Below are positions 38,652-50,421 of a DNA stretch of 64,000 nucleotides, in pieces (positions within the stretch are counted from its first letter, which is position 1; each line of letters starts with the position of its first letter). The stretch spans positions 1 through 64,000 of the forward strand of contig BGOM01000015.1 of assembly GCA_003569245.1 (NCBI GenBank), in the 5' to 3' direction. The stretch is from Opitutia bacterium (lineage in GTDB: Bacteria; Verrucomicrobiota; Verrucomicrobiia; Opitutales; UBA953). The position numbers and the translations under genes were made by a program. The notes under the pieces are model-generated. The model was not told the DNA's origin, did no database searches, and saw only the letters and a list, made by a program, of their open reading frames with translations.

Positions 38652-40148
38652 TTAGGCAGCGGCAAGCTGGGCCGAGTCGGTGAACCCGCGATGGATCCGG
38701 TACTCAAGCAACGACGACCAGGGCCAGCGACGGGTCACTTCGATGCCGTAGGCCGAGGGGTTGCTCCCCATCGGGGAAAGCATCTCCAGCTGGAAGGCGT
38801 TATGCTCGATCATCGCCTTAAGCGCAGGTCGCACGGCGACCTCGTCCCGGACAACCTGGAGCCAATGTTGCTCCTCGCGAACATCTGCCCCGGGCAGACC
38901 GGTCAGGTAGTTTATGACGACCGCGACGCCCGCCTCGGCGGCGGCATCCAGGAAGCCGCGGAGCAGCTTCGGTGACTGCGGCTTATTGATGATGTTTTGG
39001 GAGGTGTCGTCGAGGGTCTCGAGGCCGATCTCTAGAGTACGCAAGCCTTCGCCGTACAGACGACGCATGGTCTCCCGATTGAAGCTGTCGTGGAGCTTGG
39101 TGCATGCGCTCCACAAGACCCGGCCCTTGATCATTGCACCGACCTCACGCAGCTGAGTGGGCACAAGGAGACTATCCTTGAAAGAGACCACGGCATCATG
39201 GGCGACCGCCTGCTCGATGACGGGCTCCAAGGCCGTCACAGAAATCTTACGATGCTTACCCTCAATTTTGGGGTAAGTGCAGAAAGAGCACTTGCCGTAG
39301 GCGCAGCCGCGCGAGGCCTGGACGGGCAGGGTCAGGCTACCTTGGCCATAGGACACGAGATCGAAGGAGGGAACCGTAGCGCCGTCTTCCTTGGCACGCC
39401 GGGAAGCCGTGCCAGCTCGGAAGACTTCCGCCGGCCAAGGATTGTCGATGGCTACAGCGTCGAGAAGCTCAACCCAGGTCTTCTCGGCGTACCCGACCAC
39501 GAAGCCGTCGATGCCTTCGCCATAGATTGTATCCTTGCTGATAGGGTCAGCCAAAGCGGTGACATGGGCACCGCCCCAGACGACCGGGACCCCAGGCCAG
39601 ACGGCGCGGATGACCTTGGTGACGGCCAGAGCGGCGATGATCTGACCGCTGAACATGACGGAGAGTCCGACCAAGTCCGGACGCGGAACCTGCTCTAACT
39701 GACGACGCACCCATTCCCCGAATGAGCCTGCGGCCAGGTTGGCGGCGCAGCCGATGATTTCATCGTGTGAAGCGTAGAGCACAACAGTTCGCGATTCCCT
39801 TTCATTAGCGGGGACAGGGACGGGCCAGTGGGTTGAGCAAAGCTCCTGCCACTCCTGGTAAAGACGGTTCAGCTCCTTGGACGGCTTATCATGGTCACCC
39901 TTGATCTGGCCGGAGGTATGGGCGGAGGTGATGCGCTCCTTGATCCATTCTCGGTTGAGATCCAGGACGTCGACCTTGTGTCCGGCGCGTTCGCCCGCCC
40001 CTTTCAGGTAGGCGGGGCCGGCCATCGGCCCCCCGAAGTGCTTGAGGAACGGCGGGACGATGACAACCGACGCGGTCTTCGGTCGAACGTCGGGGATAAC
40101 GGGCAACGGAGCGCCGTCAGTGGTGAGGTAGCTGGATACGTCGATCAT
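38652..40148 (-). CDS. Radical SAM protein with N-terminal B12-binding-like region (498 aa)
   Basis: RGCAYGKCSFCTYPKIEGKHRKIS cysteine motif; N-terminal ASVVIVPPFLKHFGGPMAGPAYLKGAGERAGHKVDVLDLN and GVPVVWGGAHVTA are B12-domain-like. Confidence 0.85.
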   Translation of the reverse strand: MIDVSSYLTTDGAPLPVIPDVRPKTASVVIVPPFLKHFGGPMAGPAYLKGAGERAGHKVDVLDLNREWIKERITSAHTSGQIKGDHDKPSKELNRLYQEWQELCSTHWPVPVPANERESRTVVLYASHDEIIGCAANLAAGSFGEWVRRQLEQVPRPDLVGLSVMFSGQIIAALAVTKVIRAVWPGVPVVWGGAHVTALADPISKDTIYGEGIDGFVVGYAEKTWVELLDAVAIDNPWPAEVFRAGTASRRAKEDGATVPSFDLVSYGQGSLTLPVQASRGCAYGKCSFCTYPKIEGKHRKISVTALEPVIEQAVAHDAVVSFKDSLLVPTQLREVGAMIKGRVLWSACTKLHDSFNRETMRRLYGEGLRTLEIGLETLDDTSQNIINKPQSPKLLRGFLDAAAEAGVAVVINYLTGLPGADVREEQHWLQVVRDEVAVRPALKAMIEHNAFQLEMLSPMGSNPSAYGIEVTRRWPWSSLLEYRIHRGFTDSAQLAAA

Positions 40149-40298: not shown

Positions 40299-42221
40299 CT
40301 AACGCCTTAGATCACACCTAATACGCAAACCCGTAATTATTCTCTCTAATTCTAAATCAAAGTTAAAATATATCCCGAACTGGATTTCACCTGCGGTAAT
40401 CAAGGCTTTACGATAGCGCGCTATTTGTAGCTTAGCCTTCTTATCTTCCGTGGCCCTTTCCTTCATCCATAAGGCGGCTGCCATTTCGGGTATACACCAT
40501 GCAGCAACCTCGCCATCCATCGTGCCCTCGTCATTCTTAACTGAAATATCTTCTTCGAACTTTACTTTGGAATCAAAGATAGCGTCGAGTGTCCGGGCAT
40601 AATGGGAAAGCGCCTGATCTAACTGAACTATATACTTTTGCGGAACATTTTGGCAATGCCACGCATTGTGTAACGCGTTTCTTGCCATCAGCATCCAGAC
40701 GATTCCTTTAGGAATATCGAGTGCGTCGTCTTTCTTAAGCCAGGCGATGGCTTCCTCGATATAACTGGTCCCCGGCTTCCCCCTCACATCAATGATGAAA
40801 CGCGGGTTGGATCGCAGACCTGCCCGGTACCTAATTGCAAGCAGCCCAAATTGCCTAGCTTTGGAAGCGGCCTTCAAAATCTCGGGCCTCGAAAGAGATT
40901 CTAAAAGCCTGTCCAACAGTTCGGACGCCCGCCACTCTAGCTTTAATACTACCGCGGCATTTTTCAGGTCCGCAGATAGCCCGTGGGCAGGGTTTCCTTT
41001 CACCATTCGTCCAAGAAGTATTCGCCGTGAAAGGAGGTAAGCCCAACCGAATAGCTTGGAAGCCTGATCATGATCCGTATGGTCGGGGTAAGGATAGGCT
41101 TTGTGGGCATCGATAACCTTCTCCGCAGTGTCCAGCGCCCCATCTGGATTCTTTCTCAACATCTCGGCTTCTGCTTCCATCTTAAAAGCAAATCTCAAAA
41201 GTCCGAACTTCGCCCGGGCGCAATTCACTAAAGGCAATTGTTCGGTTTTCTTGAACGTAAGCTCATCTTGCTGAATTACCTTAGCGACTAGCATCTCGTC
41301 TGCCGAAAGATCCCCCGAGGCAAGATCTGCGAGGCTGGACCATAAGCGACTTATCGCAGGGTTCTCGACATATTCGGTCACAAGCTCGCGTATGAGCGTA
41401 AACTGTTCGTTAGCCTGCGATCTTACGGGGTGAAAATGTATAAGGGCGTCAAAGAGCAGTTGCCACCTTTGCAGTTTTTCCATCTCGGACGTGGATAATG
41501 ATGTAGGCTTAGCGTAACCGCGAGCTGCACCTAGTTCCTCCGGCTTCGACGGGGCGCCAGAGGCATACCAAGCCAATAGCGACTTGCTGGGCGGATCGTC
41601 ATCGCGCGCCCTACCATCGACCGCGATCACTCTGAATACCGACGGATCGGAGCGCAGGAGAAAGGTTAAGTTGTGCGCCATGATTGGGGTCAAAACCACA
41701 CGTCCAACGAGACTAATCAGGCCATCGTATTCTACCTTCGGGAAAATCGAGTGAAGCCGTAGCGATACAGCCACAAAATGGTTAAGGGCGACGCGATAGC
41801 CGATTGGCCCGGGCCAACGCTCGTTTTCAACCTGAGAAAAGTCGGGCATTATCTGGCACAGCCCCGCTTCGACACCCATGAGGGCTTTCTCTACGCGGAC
41901 CGCCGATTCTAAGTAGTCTCCTTCTTTTTTTAACAAAACTCCAAAGCCTTCCTTCATCCTCACCACCAACTTCGTCCTCGAATCTTTGAGAAAGGCGCGG
42001 GCCTTACTTAGTGTTACTTTAAATGAACTAGTTTTCTGGCCGCGCACCAATTGAAGATCGCTTTGCATCTTCGCAGTCATTTGTCCCCTCATTTCCTTGA
42101 GGCCGTAGCGATATAGGCCAGCCAAGGCTTCCGTTAAAAGCAACCCGGCCCACTTGTTGGCGTCTCCAGCTGGGGGGTTATTCATATATAGGCTTATTAG
42201 ATGCCCCGAATGACCGGTCAA
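40299..42221 (-). CDS. Uncharacterised alpha-helical protein, family B member 1 (640 aa)
   Basis: C-terminal features RYRAGLRSNPRFI and ARYRKALITAGEIQFGIYFNFDLELERIITGL resemble 48643-50421. Confidence 0.75.
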   Translation of the reverse strand: MTGHSGHLISLYMNNPPAGDANKWAGLLLTEALAGLYRYGLKEMRGQMTAKMQSDLQLVRGQKTSSFKVTLSKARAFLKDSRTKLVVRMKEGFGVLLKKEGDYLESAVRVEKALMGVEAGLCQIMPDFSQVENERWPGPIGYRVALNHFVAVSLRLHSIFPKVEYDGLISLVGRVVLTPIMAHNLTFLLRSDPSVFRVIAVDGRARDDDPPSKSLLAWYASGAPSKPEELGAARGYAKPTSLSTSEMEKLQRWQLLFDALIHFHPVRSQANEQFTLIRELVTEYVENPAISRLWSSLADLASGDLSADEMLVAKVIQQDELTFKKTEQLPLVNCARAKFGLLRFAFKMEAEAEMLRKNPDGALDTAEKVIDAHKAYPYPDHTDHDQASKLFGWAYLLSRRILLGRMVKGNPAHGLSADLKNAAVVLKLEWRASELLDRLLESLSRPEILKAASKARQFGLLAIRYRAGLRSNPRFIIDVRGKPGTSYIEEAIAWLKKDDALDIPKGIVWMLMARNALHNAWHCQNVPQKYIVQLDQALSHYARTLDAIFDSKVKFEEDISVKNDEGTMDGEVAAWCIPEMAAALWMKERATEDKKAKLQIARYRKALITAGEIQFGIYFNFDLELERIITGLRIRCDLRR

Positions 42222-42373: not shown

Positions 42374-43033
42374 ATGAATCCTCTTCTGTATTTATCCCGG
42401 ACGAGCGCCAATGGCTGGACGATCCTCCGCCCGCAGTCCCAGGCTAACCTGCTGGCCGACCTGGCGCAACTGGGTCCGGTCATCCAGACGACGGAGATCA
42501 CCCCGCGGGTCAACGCCAAGGCGGCCTTGGCGACCGATCAGGAGATGGCGCTGCACACGGACCATCCCCGGGCCCGTTGGATCAGCTGGGAGTGCGTCCG
42601 CCAGTCCTCCGAGGGAGGCTACAGCCTACTGAAGGACACCAAGCCCGCGCTTAATTCCCTTTCCGACTCCGAGCGCGACGAACTCCGAGCCCTGACGATT
42701 CGCACGCATGTCGTCTTTCCGGACGATATGGGAGCCTATCCTGTCCTTCGTCAGGATAGAGACGGCGCTGACTGGGTCTACTTCACGCCTTGGATGACGG
42801 ATGGGCAGTCCTCGCCGGCGTTCCGCAAGTTCATCCAGGCGCTCGAGGCCACCCCGACCCTTACCCTCCGTCTCTACCCCGGGGAATCCCTGCTCATCGA
42901 TAACGGCCGCATGCTGCATGGCCGCTCGGCACTCGGCGGCGACAAAGACCGCCTCCTGATCCGCCGATGGATCGCCTCCCCTTTCGACACTTTCGGCCGC
43001 ACCCGCGGCCTAGAAGCCAACGCCGTCGGCTAA
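42374..43033 (+). CDS. TauD/TfdA-like 2-oxoglutarate/Fe(II) dioxygenase (219 aa)
   Basis: ALHTDHPRARW (HxD) ... LYPGESLLIDNGRMLHGRSAL...RLLIRRWI distal His/Arg. Confidence 0.8.
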   Translation: MNPLLYLSRTSANGWTILRPQSQANLLADLAQLGPVIQTTEITPRVNAKAALATDQEMALHTDHPRARWISWECVRQSSEGGYSLLKDTKPALNSLSDSERDELRALTIRTHVVFPDDMGAYPVLRQDRDGADWVYFTPWMTDGQSSPAFRKFIQALEATPTLTLRLYPGESLLIDNGRMLHGRSALGGDKDRLLIRRWIASPFDTFGRTRGLEANAVG

Positions 43034-43057
43034 ATCGGCACTCCCAAACCAAAAACC

Positions 43058-43630
43058 ATGAACACCCAGACCCAGATCCCCGCGGCGGAGGCCTTCCTGG
43101 CCCACGCCTCCACCCTCAACCCGGCGCCGACCCACATGGTCTTCCCCGCCCCGCTCACCTCGGAGCGCATCAGCTGGCTCGCCGCCAAAGGCGTCGACCC
43201 GCAGATCGCCGCCCTCGACCTCGAGATGGTCAAGATGAAGCTCCGCGACCAGGAGGAAGGCCAGGGGTGGTCGCTCCAGCAGACCGACGAGGCCGAACTC
43301 GAGTACAAGCGCTGGCTCACCCTCGTGAAGCGCCATGGCAAGGGCATGGTCCCGACCAACGCGATCGACCTCTTCTGGCACCAGCACATCCTCGACACCC
43401 GCGCCTACGTGGTCGACTGCGAGCGGACCTTCGGTGGCTACCTGCACCACTACCCCTACTTCGGCATGCGCGGGGAGCAGGACGCCAAGGACCTCGAGGC
43501 CGCGTTCCGCCGGACGCAGGCCCTCTACCAGGAGGCCTTCAACGAGACCCTCGGCGCCAACGCCGGTGAGAACTGCTGGCACGACTGCGAAAGCCGCTGC
43601 TGGCACGCCTGCTCCGGCGGGAAGGACTAA
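43058..43630 (+). CDS. GRDP-like (glycine-rich domain-containing protein-like) protein with Cys/His/Trp-rich C-terminal tail (190 aa)
   Basis: NAIDLFWHQHILDTRAYVVDCERTFGGYLHHYPYFGM core; C-terminus GENCWHDCESRCWHACSGGKD; 25 bp after the dioxygenase stop. Confidence 0.75.
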   Translation: MNTQTQIPAAEAFLAHASTLNPAPTHMVFPAPLTSERISWLAAKGVDPQIAALDLEMVKMKLRDQEEGQGWSLQQTDEAELEYKRWLTLVKRHGKGMVPTNAIDLFWHQHILDTRAYVVDCERTFGGYLHHYPYFGMRGEQDAKDLEAAFRRTQALYQEAFNETLGANAGENCWHDCESRCWHACSGGKD

Positions 43631-43642
43631 CCAACGGGGCTC

Positions 43643-43664
43643 GGCCGGCCCGCAAGGGCCGGCC
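43643..43664 (+). terminator. Strong hairpin with GCAA tetraloop after the GRDP-like gene
   Basis: GGCCGGCCC-GCAA-GGGCCGGCC; no long U-tract, so could be an mRNA-stabilising or weak terminator hairpin. Confidence 0.5.
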
Positions 43665-43768
43665 ATCCGCCCTCTGCTTCAAGCACTTACCCAACTTAAG
43701 CCCAATTCCTGCGACAAGCGCCCTCACCCGAACCCACCCTATCTCCCACCCCTCTTTATAGAGACCTC

Positions 43769-44674
43769 ATGATCGACTCCTCCCACACCCCCCCGGCCTT
43801 CAACAGCTACGCCGACGTAATCAGAACTATCCGGCTCGGACAGAAAGCATTCCTAAACATGTCGAACGGCACTACCTCCCGTATCAACCGAACCCGACTG
43901 CTGCAAAACTATGAGACCATCCTGCATTGCGCCGGCATCGAGCAGATGATGGGCGAGGCCATCGGCGTAAAGCCGGGCGAACTTTTGATCCAAGACGCCG
44001 ACGAGGAACTTGGTCGATATGCGGACGTGCCTGCCTGCTGGCTGCCTTCGCTAGGCGAGTTGATTTCAGCCGCCGACCATAAAATGGCGATCGCCAGCGA
44101 TTTGCTGGCGGAAATCAAGTTGGTCAAAGAGTTTCGCGACCAGGTTCTGCATGGCAAACAGCCCGCTTTCGGCGCCGGCCAACGTAAATGCGTGAAAGCC
44201 GTTTTCCAGAAGCTGCGACAGGGCAAGCACTGCACACCCCGAGCGGAGTTGCTTAGCCGAATCGCCTTCGTCGAGAAGATTCAAGCTGGCAAAGCCGAGG
44301 CTGAAGAAACTTTCGCGACTCTGGAAACTCTCTATCTTTCGATTGAGGCCGAGAGCGACGTTCGGAACGCACTGCCGCCTTCAAAATACAAAAATTTTCA
44401 TCTCCCGGCCGTAGCCAGCATCTTCGAGCTCAAGCGGCTCGACCCGGCCCTGACGCGGATTTTCAAGCGCGACAACCTTTCTCGACGACTCAGGGCAAGT
44501 GCCTTGATCCGGAACCACCTCGTACATGGGTCGCTCATCACCCCAACCGAGAGACAAACGAGCATCATCCGTTCGGCACATGAGCTCCTGGGGCAGGCGC
44601 TGGTCGAATTCCAGCTTAAGAAGAACGGCGGCCACACCGCCGGCGGCGACCTCCGCAACGGATTGGACCTCTGA
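43769..44674 (+). CDS. Tandem HEPN-like protein (301 aa)
   Basis: Two Rx4H motifs, KEFRDQVLHGK and ALIRNHLVHGS, in helical contexts about 150 residues apart. Confidence 0.6.
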   Translation: MIDSSHTPPAFNSYADVIRTIRLGQKAFLNMSNGTTSRINRTRLLQNYETILHCAGIEQMMGEAIGVKPGELLIQDADEELGRYADVPACWLPSLGELISAADHKMAIASDLLAEIKLVKEFRDQVLHGKQPAFGAGQRKCVKAVFQKLRQGKHCTPRAELLSRIAFVEKIQAGKAEAEETFATLETLYLSIEAESDVRNALPPSKYKNFHLPAVASIFELKRLDPALTRIFKRDNLSRRLRASALIRNHLVHGSLITPTERQTSIIRSAHELLGQALVEFQLKKNGGHTAGGDLRNGLDL

Positions 44675-44813: not shown

Positions 44814-44906
44814 ATGGCTAACAACTACGGCAACGGTGGCGGTTACCCCAGCACGACGGGCAACTCGTCGGGCGGCGGTCGCTCCAACGGCCCGCGCGGC
44901 AAGTAA
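44814..44906 (+). CDS. Short Gly/Ser/Asn-rich peptide (30 aa)
   Basis: MANNYGNGGGYPSTTGNSSGGGRSNGPRGK*; preceded by AGAAAGGA SD-like sequence and followed by a terminator 20 bp downstream. Confidence 0.65.
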   Translation: MANNYGNGGGYPSTTGNSSGGGRSNGPRGK

Positions 44907-44926
44907 GCCGCCAAGCGGATGGTCGC

Positions 44927-44954
44927 GAGGGGCTGTCGGTCGGCCCCTCTTTTT
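44927..44954 (+). terminator. Rho-independent terminator after the 30-aa peptide
   Basis: GAGGGGC-TGTCGGTCG-GCCCCTC followed by TTTTT. Confidence 0.85.
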
Positions 44955-48642: not shown

Positions 48643-50421
48643 ATGCCCCTCGAAGCGGAAGATTTCCATTACCTGACGATCCTGCGCGAGCTGGAGAAGG
48701 CGCTGGCCCGGCTGGATCGCAAGGCGACCCGGAACGACCGACGCCAGACGTACCGGACGACGGAGGCTTTCCGCTCGGCCTTGCCGAAGCTGAGCGAGAA
48801 AGGGGTCGGGGCGAACATCGCGGTGGCGCTGCGGGCTTCCGCCGAGTTGCTCGCCGAGACCGAAGCGGCGAGCGCGCAGGTGATCCGCGAGCAAACCGAG
48901 GTCCGGCCGCGACTGGCGCGCCTGGCGGCGGGGGACTGGCCGCCGCTGGTGCCGGCGGCCCGGATGGTCGAGCGGTTCACGGCCCTGACGATCGGCAAGC
49001 ATGCGGAGGACCCGGCGAGCCCGCTGGCCGAGCATGCAGAGGAGGCCTTCCGCCTGGCGGTCCTGCCGGCGCTCGCCTGGGGACTCGTCGCCCATCTTTA
49101 CGAGCTGCCGGAGAACCTCCGCGGTGATGCGCAGCAGGCGCTGGCCCGCCACTTCCGCGGGAAACCCCAACCCTACCAGACCGAAATCCGCCTGAGCGAC
49201 GAGGAGGAGCCGCTGACCTTCCGTTATCTCCGGATGGTCGAGGGCTGGTTGCGCGTCCTCGAAGGGGAGTCCGCCTGGCAGCTCGCAGCGGAACGCATCA
49301 CGAGCTTGCGCGGCGAGCTCGCCAAGTTGCTGGAGCGCCGGCTGACCGACCTCGACACGCATCTGTGGGAACTGCTGGGCGACCACTACACCGCGCAGGT
49401 CGCCGGCTCGCAACGCGCCCGGGTCGTGGCCCAGGCGTCCGAACATTCGCGGCATAGCGCGGGCTTCCTGCGTAACCGCCTGCAGCTCTTCGCCGCGGCC
49501 AACGCGACTGGTCTGCGGAAGTTCCGCCTCCAGACCGAGCGCAACCTCAAGCAGGCGGTGGCCCATAAGTTCGCGGCAGAACAAGAGAGCGCCCCCGCCC
49601 CGGGCGACCAGGCCGCGGCCGGACGCGAGGCCTGCGGGGCGGCCTTCTGGCTGGCCCGGGCCTGCTTCGGGCACGCGACGAAGGTGCCGACGGAGCATCA
49701 GTACGCCGCCTCGAAGAAGGTGCTGCTCCTGCTGTTGCGCGCCGCGGCGCTGCTGAAGGGCGAACCGGATCTCCAGCGGACCTGCGTGCGCTACGCCGCC
49801 GGCTTCGCCACGAACCCGCGCTACATCCGCTCCGGGCTGGTCCTCGATTTCCAGGAACGACTGGTCGACCTCTACGCCGGACTGCCGGGCGCCCGGCGCT
49901 CCCTGACCAACCTCTTCCGGGGGCGGATCTACTGGCAACGCTGGCAGGCGGAGCTGGTCGATGACGCGCACAAGGCGGTCGAGTTCTACGGTGCGGCGCT
50001 GAAGGACTATCGCGACCCTGAGCACGGCTTCGACGCCGAAGCACCGGTGCATTTCTTCCCCGAGCTGCAGATCCTGCTCCAGGAGGTCCGCAAGCGCAAG
50101 GACCGCGAGCTGCACACCCTCGAGGTCGTGGACTTCATCACCCAGCGCAATTACGGCATCTATTTCGACGTCAAGGAAGAGGAACGCATGCTCACGGCCG
50201 GCCTCGACGAATACGCCGATTTCAAGTCGGACTGCTTCCAGCGGCTGCGGAAGCGCCTGAAGGCGAGCGCGGTGAAGCACGAGTCCCTGGAAGATACGGA
50301 TTGGGAAAACCTCGGGGACACCGCCTTGGTGTTGGCCGAGATGGATCCCACGACCGACTATTACCAGACGCTGATCAACGACCTGAAGACGATTCCGGGG
50401 ATGAGGTTTGGGAGGAAGTAG
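48643..50421 (+). CDS. Uncharacterised alpha-helical protein, family B member 2 (592 aa)
   Basis: RYAAGFATNPRYI and LEVVDFITQRNYGIYFDVKEEERMLTAGL match features of 40299-42221. Confidence 0.75.
   Translation: MPLEAEDFHYLTILRELEKALARLDRKATRNDRRQTYRTTEAFRSALPKLSEKGVGANIAVALRASAELLAETEAASAQVIREQTEVRPRLARLAAGDWPPLVPAARMVERFTALTIGKHAEDPASPLAEHAEEAFRLAVLPALAWGLVAHLYELPENLRGDAQQALARHFRGKPQPYQTEIRLSDEEEPLTFRYLRMVEGWLRVLEGESAWQLAAERITSLRGELAKLLERRLTDLDTHLWELLGDHYTAQVAGSQRARVVAQASEHSRHSAGFLRNRLQLFAAANATGLRKFRLQTERNLKQAVAHKFAAEQESAPAPGDQAAAGREACGAAFWLARACFGHATKVPTEHQYAASKKVLLLLLRAAALLKGEPDLQRTCVRYAAGFATNPRYIRSGLVLDFQERLVDLYAGLPGARRSLTNLFRGRIYWQRWQAELVDDAHKAVEFYGAALKDYRDPEHGFDAEAPVHFFPELQILLQEVRKRKDRELHTLEVVDFITQRNYGIYFDVKEEERMLTAGLDEYADFKSDCFQRLRKRLKASAVKHESLEDTDWENLGDTALVLAEMDPTTDYYQTLINDLKTIPGMRFGRK

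Follow-up and report, generated by a model that had tools for sequence, protein, structure and literature searches.

Ribosomal peptides can be modified by oxygenases encoded next to them. In RiPP classes that use 2-oxoglutarate (2OG) hydroxylases, such as cinnamycin with its hydroxylase CinX, an Fe/2OG enzyme acts on a ribosomal peptide from an adjoining gene.

Larger proteins may be modified as well. The TIGR04222 membrane proteins have Cys-rich C-terminal tails, and some of them have been proposed as substrates of MNIO (DUF692) enzymes (PMC12452194). The plant proteins GRDP1 and GRDP2 (DUF1399/PF07173) are known from a different setting. These are long, glycine-rich proteins of stress and development (PMC4299439).

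The window analysed here is a stretch of 64,000 nucleotides from an Opitutia bacterium (contig BGOM01000015.1). Within it, a TauD-like ORF lies upstream of a GRDP-like ORF on the same strand (Table 1). ORF reading and Pfam found both where a first-pass annotation had placed them, and the 190-aa GRDP-like protein ends in NCWHDCESRCWHACSGGKD, as described there. The gap between the two genes, put at 25 bp in that annotation, measures 24 bp.

The pair is here proposed to be a substrate and its enzyme, the tail of the GRDP-like protein being oxidised by the neighbouring TauD-like oxygenase. The probability of this reading is estimated at about 60%. From the adjacency of the genes, the conserved tail, the intact metal triad and a natural fusion, all seen in the sequences, we infer that the tail is the substrate. 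The GRDP-like domain would serve as a folded carrier presenting a flexible, Cys-rich C-terminal tail, and the TauD-like enzyme would oxidise this tail, much as leader-core precursors are processed by the tailoring enzymes of RiPP pathways.

Table 1. Position of the gene pair and its parts in the window.
Feature	Coordinates	Strand	Basis	Proposed role
TauD/TfdA-like Fe(II)/2-oxoglutarate oxygenase, 219 aa	42374..43033	+	Pfam TauD 7.7e-12	Candidate tail-modifying enzyme
GRDP-like protein, 190 aa	43058..43630	+	Pfam GRDP-like 1.2e-4	Putative carrier (leader-like) domain and substrate tail
GRDP-like all-helical domain, residues 27-161	43136..43540	+	Invariant columns, AlphaFold2 model	
Tail core CWHDCESRCWHAC, residues 173-185	43574..43612	+	Column identity	Putative substrate region
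9-bp GC stem with GCAA loop	43643..43664	+		Probable transcript-end hairpin

The strong hairpin reported after the GRDP-like gene is indeed present and stable (GGCCGGCCC-GCAA-GGGCCGGCC). The stretch 43628-43690 around it has a minimum free energy of -33.3 kcal/mol (z -4.0), and similar hairpins are found 3' of the GRDP-like gene in two relatives, L021 and L022. As a canonical intrinsic terminator it was rejected: no T-run follows it, and a terminator scan gives it no such score.

Several other genes lie close to the pair. Directly downstream is a 301-aa ORF with no Pfam match (43769-44674), which occupies the same place in L021 at 46% identity. Next comes a 30-aa ORF, MANNYGNGGGYPSTTGNSSGGGRSNGPRGK (44815-44907), with no homologue in 37 related genomes; behind it lies a hairpin that resembles a terminator and has a T-run (44927-44949). 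A 640-aa ORF (40299-42221, minus strand) diverges from the TauD gene and has a paralogue elsewhere in the window (48643-50421, plus strand). Its homologues adjoin the TauD-GRDP pair in L021 (31%), L022 (71%) and L024 (23%). Finally, Pfam identifies a B12-binding radical SAM protein (38652-40148, minus strand), whose first 54 residues are conserved at the same place in L022.

The TauD-like protein scores 46.1 bits against Pfam TauD, above the gathering score of 27. Its HxD...H facial triad (H61, D63, H182) is intact and is accompanied by a C-terminal R184. All four residues are invariant among 24 aligned TauD-like partners. In a profile search, the nearest solved structures were gamma-butyrobetaine dioxygenase and TmpA.

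The GRDP-like core named in the first-pass annotation matches Pfam GRDP-like (PF07173) just over the gathering score, with 23.2 bits against 22.7 (E = 1.2e-4) over part of the model (95-143 of 143). At E values up to 0.1, the same family is matched by 35 of 42 relatives. W107, H108, H110, I111, L112, D113, T114, H130, H131 and P133-YFG are invariant over 42 diverse members, giving the signature WHxHILDT...HHxPYFG. AlphaFold2 predicts an all-helical domain with pLDDT mostly above 90. Searching PDB sequences with the GRDP profile gave no match, and neither did a fold search of the model against the PDB (best E 0.92). Because the domain has invariant His and Asp residues of its own, it could be an enzyme or a metal site.

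Evidence for a lasting association of the two genes comes from related genomes. A scan of genome contigs, in which complete frames were read, gave 57 relatives (L021-L077). CW[HN]xC tails occur in 26 of these, making 27 loci with the window. A TauD-like gene adjoins the GRDP-like gene in 26 of the 27, so the conserved pairing that the first-pass annotation had asked for is observed. In the remaining locus, L029, a transposase-like ORF lies directly upstream and is followed by the contig end, which hides the neighbourhood. When the KCPQ and L065 groups, described below, are left out, 23 loci have tails of other types, and none of these has an adjoining TauD gene. Fisher's test of tail against adjacency gives p = 2e-13, a value that ignores shared ancestry.

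The arrangement of the pair is variable in a few cases. TauD lies directly upstream of GRDP in 24 of the 26 pairs, with gaps mostly within about 45 bp. In L045 the order is reversed, with TauD after GRDP. L043 is a natural TauD-GRDP fusion, a single 390-aa ORF with both Pfam domains, the GRDP-like one below its cut-off. Distances between the TauD proteins and between the GRDP proteins are correlated over the 26 pairs (Mantel r 0.85, p 0.0005). On a tree, TauD presence changes four times and the CWH state three times, and a paired (independent-contrast) test had too few contrasts. The putative coupling of tail and enzyme draws its support from few independent evolutionary events.

Adjacency could also arise by chance or by hitch-hiking within one lineage. 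The pair is patchy inside the window's own genus (3 of about 37 genomes), and some loci are nearly the same in different taxa, pointing to horizontal transfer or to contaminated bins. For instance, L033, L036 and L037 are almost identical despite differing taxa. Most of the CWH loci come from metagenome-assembled genomes, and two records, L031 (titled Limnohabitans) and L026 (titled Thermoflexus), are probably misbinned, since they are very close to Bacteroidota proteins. However, the pair is retained across several phyla at 13-58% protein divergence, with different flanking genes, a reversed order and a fusion, which makes chance a highly improbable explanation. Among the flanking genes are two conserved neighbours that, by eye, resemble a LytS/LytTR-type sensor and regulator, upstream of TauD-GRDP in L025, L038, L039, L040 and L042.

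In the GRDP-like protein, the tail core is conserved more strongly than the linker and than the domain on average. Over 26 aligned CWH-group proteins, mean pairwise column identity is 0.88 in the tail core (173-185), 0.63 in the domain and 0.38 in the linker between them (162-172). Tail conservation exceeds chance. Lack of conserved pairing and lack of tail conservation had been named in the first-pass annotation as the sequence-level grounds against its reading; both fall away, because pairing and tail are each conserved. C173, D176, C177, R180, C181, W182, A184 and C185 are invariant over 20 aligned representatives, and position 183 is His or Asn. The window protein and L021 differ only by synonymous changes over the last 19 codons, tail included. 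In the AlphaFold2 model the tail is predicted to be disordered (pLDDT < 50).

Exceptions to the motif are informative. W174 and H175 differ only in L023 (CKRDC), which has one CWH left and retains TauD. In the close relatives L047 and L048, which have no TauD, the tails read CKRAC, so that the Cys is kept and CWH has become CKR. Where TauD is missing, then, the Cys is retained but the W-H is lost, and position 183 switches between His and Asn; on these grounds the target would be Trp or His/Asn of CW[HN] and not Cys. The modification may be, for example, a beta-hydroxylation. This choice of residue is less certain than the tail being the substrate.

A tail of this composition may instead bind metal constitutively or serve as a metallochaperone, for example for copper, zinc or the iron of the oxygenase, with TauD co-regulated and no covalent modification. 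The core has four Cys and two His within 13 residues, lineages that lack any enzyme still have Cys-rich tails (CKAPKCRTACKPMKCR, CHKC, CxDDHxCH...), and the GRDP domain has invariant His. This leaves unexplained why the W-H accompanies TauD and gives way to other residues in its absence, and the explanation is considered unlikely, although it is the strongest of the alternatives. It is possible for both properties to occur together: a metal-binding tail is compatible with a RiPP-like one, and neither excludes the other.

A TauD-GRDP fusion was also modelled, from an alignment that included in-frame stretches running through the two genes, in which TAA was translated as Gly (for modelling only). 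This model, with a pTM of 0.57, leaves the tail disordered (pLDDT about 33) and does not put it in the TauD active site.

Two features expected of RiPP loci can be recognized. A conserved recognition part with a distinct C-terminal core is seen as a pattern only, and a candidate tailoring enzyme lies beside the putative precursor. No conserved protease or peptide exporter is found beside the CWH loci, and a MATE-like gene lies near the CWH group in L035 only. Tail release is therefore not indicated, a point against the proposed reading.

Relatives with other tails show which parts of the system vary. Seven loci have KCPQxCPC tails and an adjoining TauD-like enzyme unlike that of the window. 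Six of them have the order GRDP, TauD-like, radical SAM/SPASM and UvrA-like ATPase, and such an operon with radical SAM is known from Pseudomonas; the seventh, L077, has only GRDP and TauD-like genes, and three KCPQACPG units. The nearest PDB entries to the KCPQ-type TauD-like enzyme are lysine 3-hydroxylase and clavaminate synthase. The nearest PDB relatives of the CWH and KCPQ partners differ, which suggests separate recruitment from two branches of the TauD superfamily. In L065 and an Azospirillum plasmid locus (L124), the order is GRDP, methyltransferase, TauD-like and UvrA-like.

Other tails consist of repeats, counted here by eye on translations. A Variovorax plasmid protein (L123) has three one-Cys repeats of WCSLEA type, and a Cupriavidus plasmid protein (L128) has about five of xYCAR type. 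In L130, L133 and L134 from Burkholderiales, the tail is an array of about nine units, of types AYCAGPH, AFCSSPG and AWCSAPS. CHASE histidine kinases adjoin L133 and L134, a CHASE-GGDEF-EAL protein adjoins the third of these tandem-repeat proteins, and no obvious tailoring enzyme was seen among the neighbours examined. For the Burkholderiales GRDP-like proteins L145, L146 and L147, arrays of about nine aromatic-Cys repeats are recorded, and CHASE histidine kinases adjoin two of the three.

Against the proposed reading, many Cys-tailed GRDP proteins have no partner enzyme alongside. One group of relatives combines a tail-less GRDP with a MATE-like neighbour. Distant transmembrane GRDP-like proteins end in SSCG or GGCGG repeats. 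Viral contigs (IMG/VR) held only two distant GRDP-like proteins, L151 and L152, with Ser/Cys-rich tails. Judged from this range of tails and neighbours, a Cys-rich or repeated tail is common across the domain family, and the partner enzyme is its variable part. Metal binding alone leaves unexplained both the arrays of one Cys per repeat with an aromatic residue and the fact that KCPQ tails are paired, independently, with TauD and radical SAM.

The same relatives bear on another explanation, in which a small-molecule pathway has the GRDP-like domain and TauD as two of its enzymes, and the Cys tail is an appendage with a redox or regulatory role. It would account for the invariant W107, H108, H110, D113, H130 and H131, substrates of the TauD family are mostly small molecules, and the KCPQ and L065 operons include radical SAM or methyltransferase genes. 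However, where the neighbouring enzyme differs the tail differs too, although the domain remains the same, and tandem repeat tails fit poorly with a catalytic appendage. Such a pathway is considered quite unlikely, more so than a metal-binding tail.

The first-pass annotation had offered a RiPP-like precursor and a metal-binding tail side by side. The former has been strengthened, still as a proposal, by the fusion in L043, by KCPQ tails with TauD and radical SAM/SPASM, and by tandem Cys-repeat tails. A broader reading is tentative, and somewhat less probable than its opposite. The GRDP-like domain, as a new fold, might be the mark of a widespread class of RiPP-type precursors. Each would have a folded carrier of about 140 residues, joined to exchangeable Cys cores that come singly, in pairs or in arrays of as many as about 10. 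TauD-like enzymes (twice or more) and radical SAM/SPASM enzymes would have been recruited to modify these cores, and the TauD of the window would add a new CW[HN] modification.

Substrate and enzyme, if this is what the pair encodes, would be a peptide-precursor system undescribed in the literature searched. That search, with most subscription journals outside its reach, found no paper tying GRDP-like proteins to RiPPs. A domain annotated only as hypothetical or glycine-rich would then mark a set of modified peptides that would probably escape standard RiPP finders, since a folded domain takes the place of the short leader as carrier. TauD-like oxygenases would also join the enzymes that modify peptides on their own, here at a Cys-Trp-His motif. 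The pair is directly testable because it is carried by cultured strains of Winogradskyella, Gaetbulibacter, Marivirga and Raineya; L033 is from Gaetbulibacter saemankumensis and L030 from Raineya orbicola.

Comparison with known systems shows likenesses and differences. The domain of the window protein belongs, weakly, to the same Pfam family as the plant proteins GRDP1 and GRDP2 (PMC4299439), in which a Cys tail and a partner oxygenase are both absent. Classes of the CinX type differ in their precursor, and neither lanthipeptide nor lasso machinery is present at the window locus. The KCPQxCPC relatives resemble ranthipeptide and other SPASM RiPP systems, in that their SPASM radical SAM enzyme has the PapB ranthipeptide maturase as its best NCBIfam match (1.1e-37). 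This match lies far below the family cut-off (130 bits in L070 against 340), so the enzyme is not assigned to the PapB type. Their precursor is moreover a GRDP-like domain, and the window pair has no radical SAM/SPASM gene.

The bufferin/MNIO system differs in its enzyme, there being no DUF692 (MNIO) enzyme among the Pfam-scanned neighbouring genes of the window. The window protein was rejected as a TIGR04222 member, having no NCBIfam match to that family. The distant transmembrane GRDP-like proteins with (SSCG)n tails have a TIGR04222-like layout, with a sub-threshold match in only one of four. The partner enzymes differ too, that of the window being a mononuclear Fe/2OG TauD-like enzyme and not an MNIO. 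By analogy, the TIGR04222-MNIO proposal (PMC12452194) is nevertheless the nearest published parallel. TIGR04222 proteins are likewise regarded as modified proteins rather than classical short precursors (PMC12452194), and they and the window protein both have a large N-terminal part, an unstructured Cys-rich tail and an adjoining iron-dependent oxidative enzyme.
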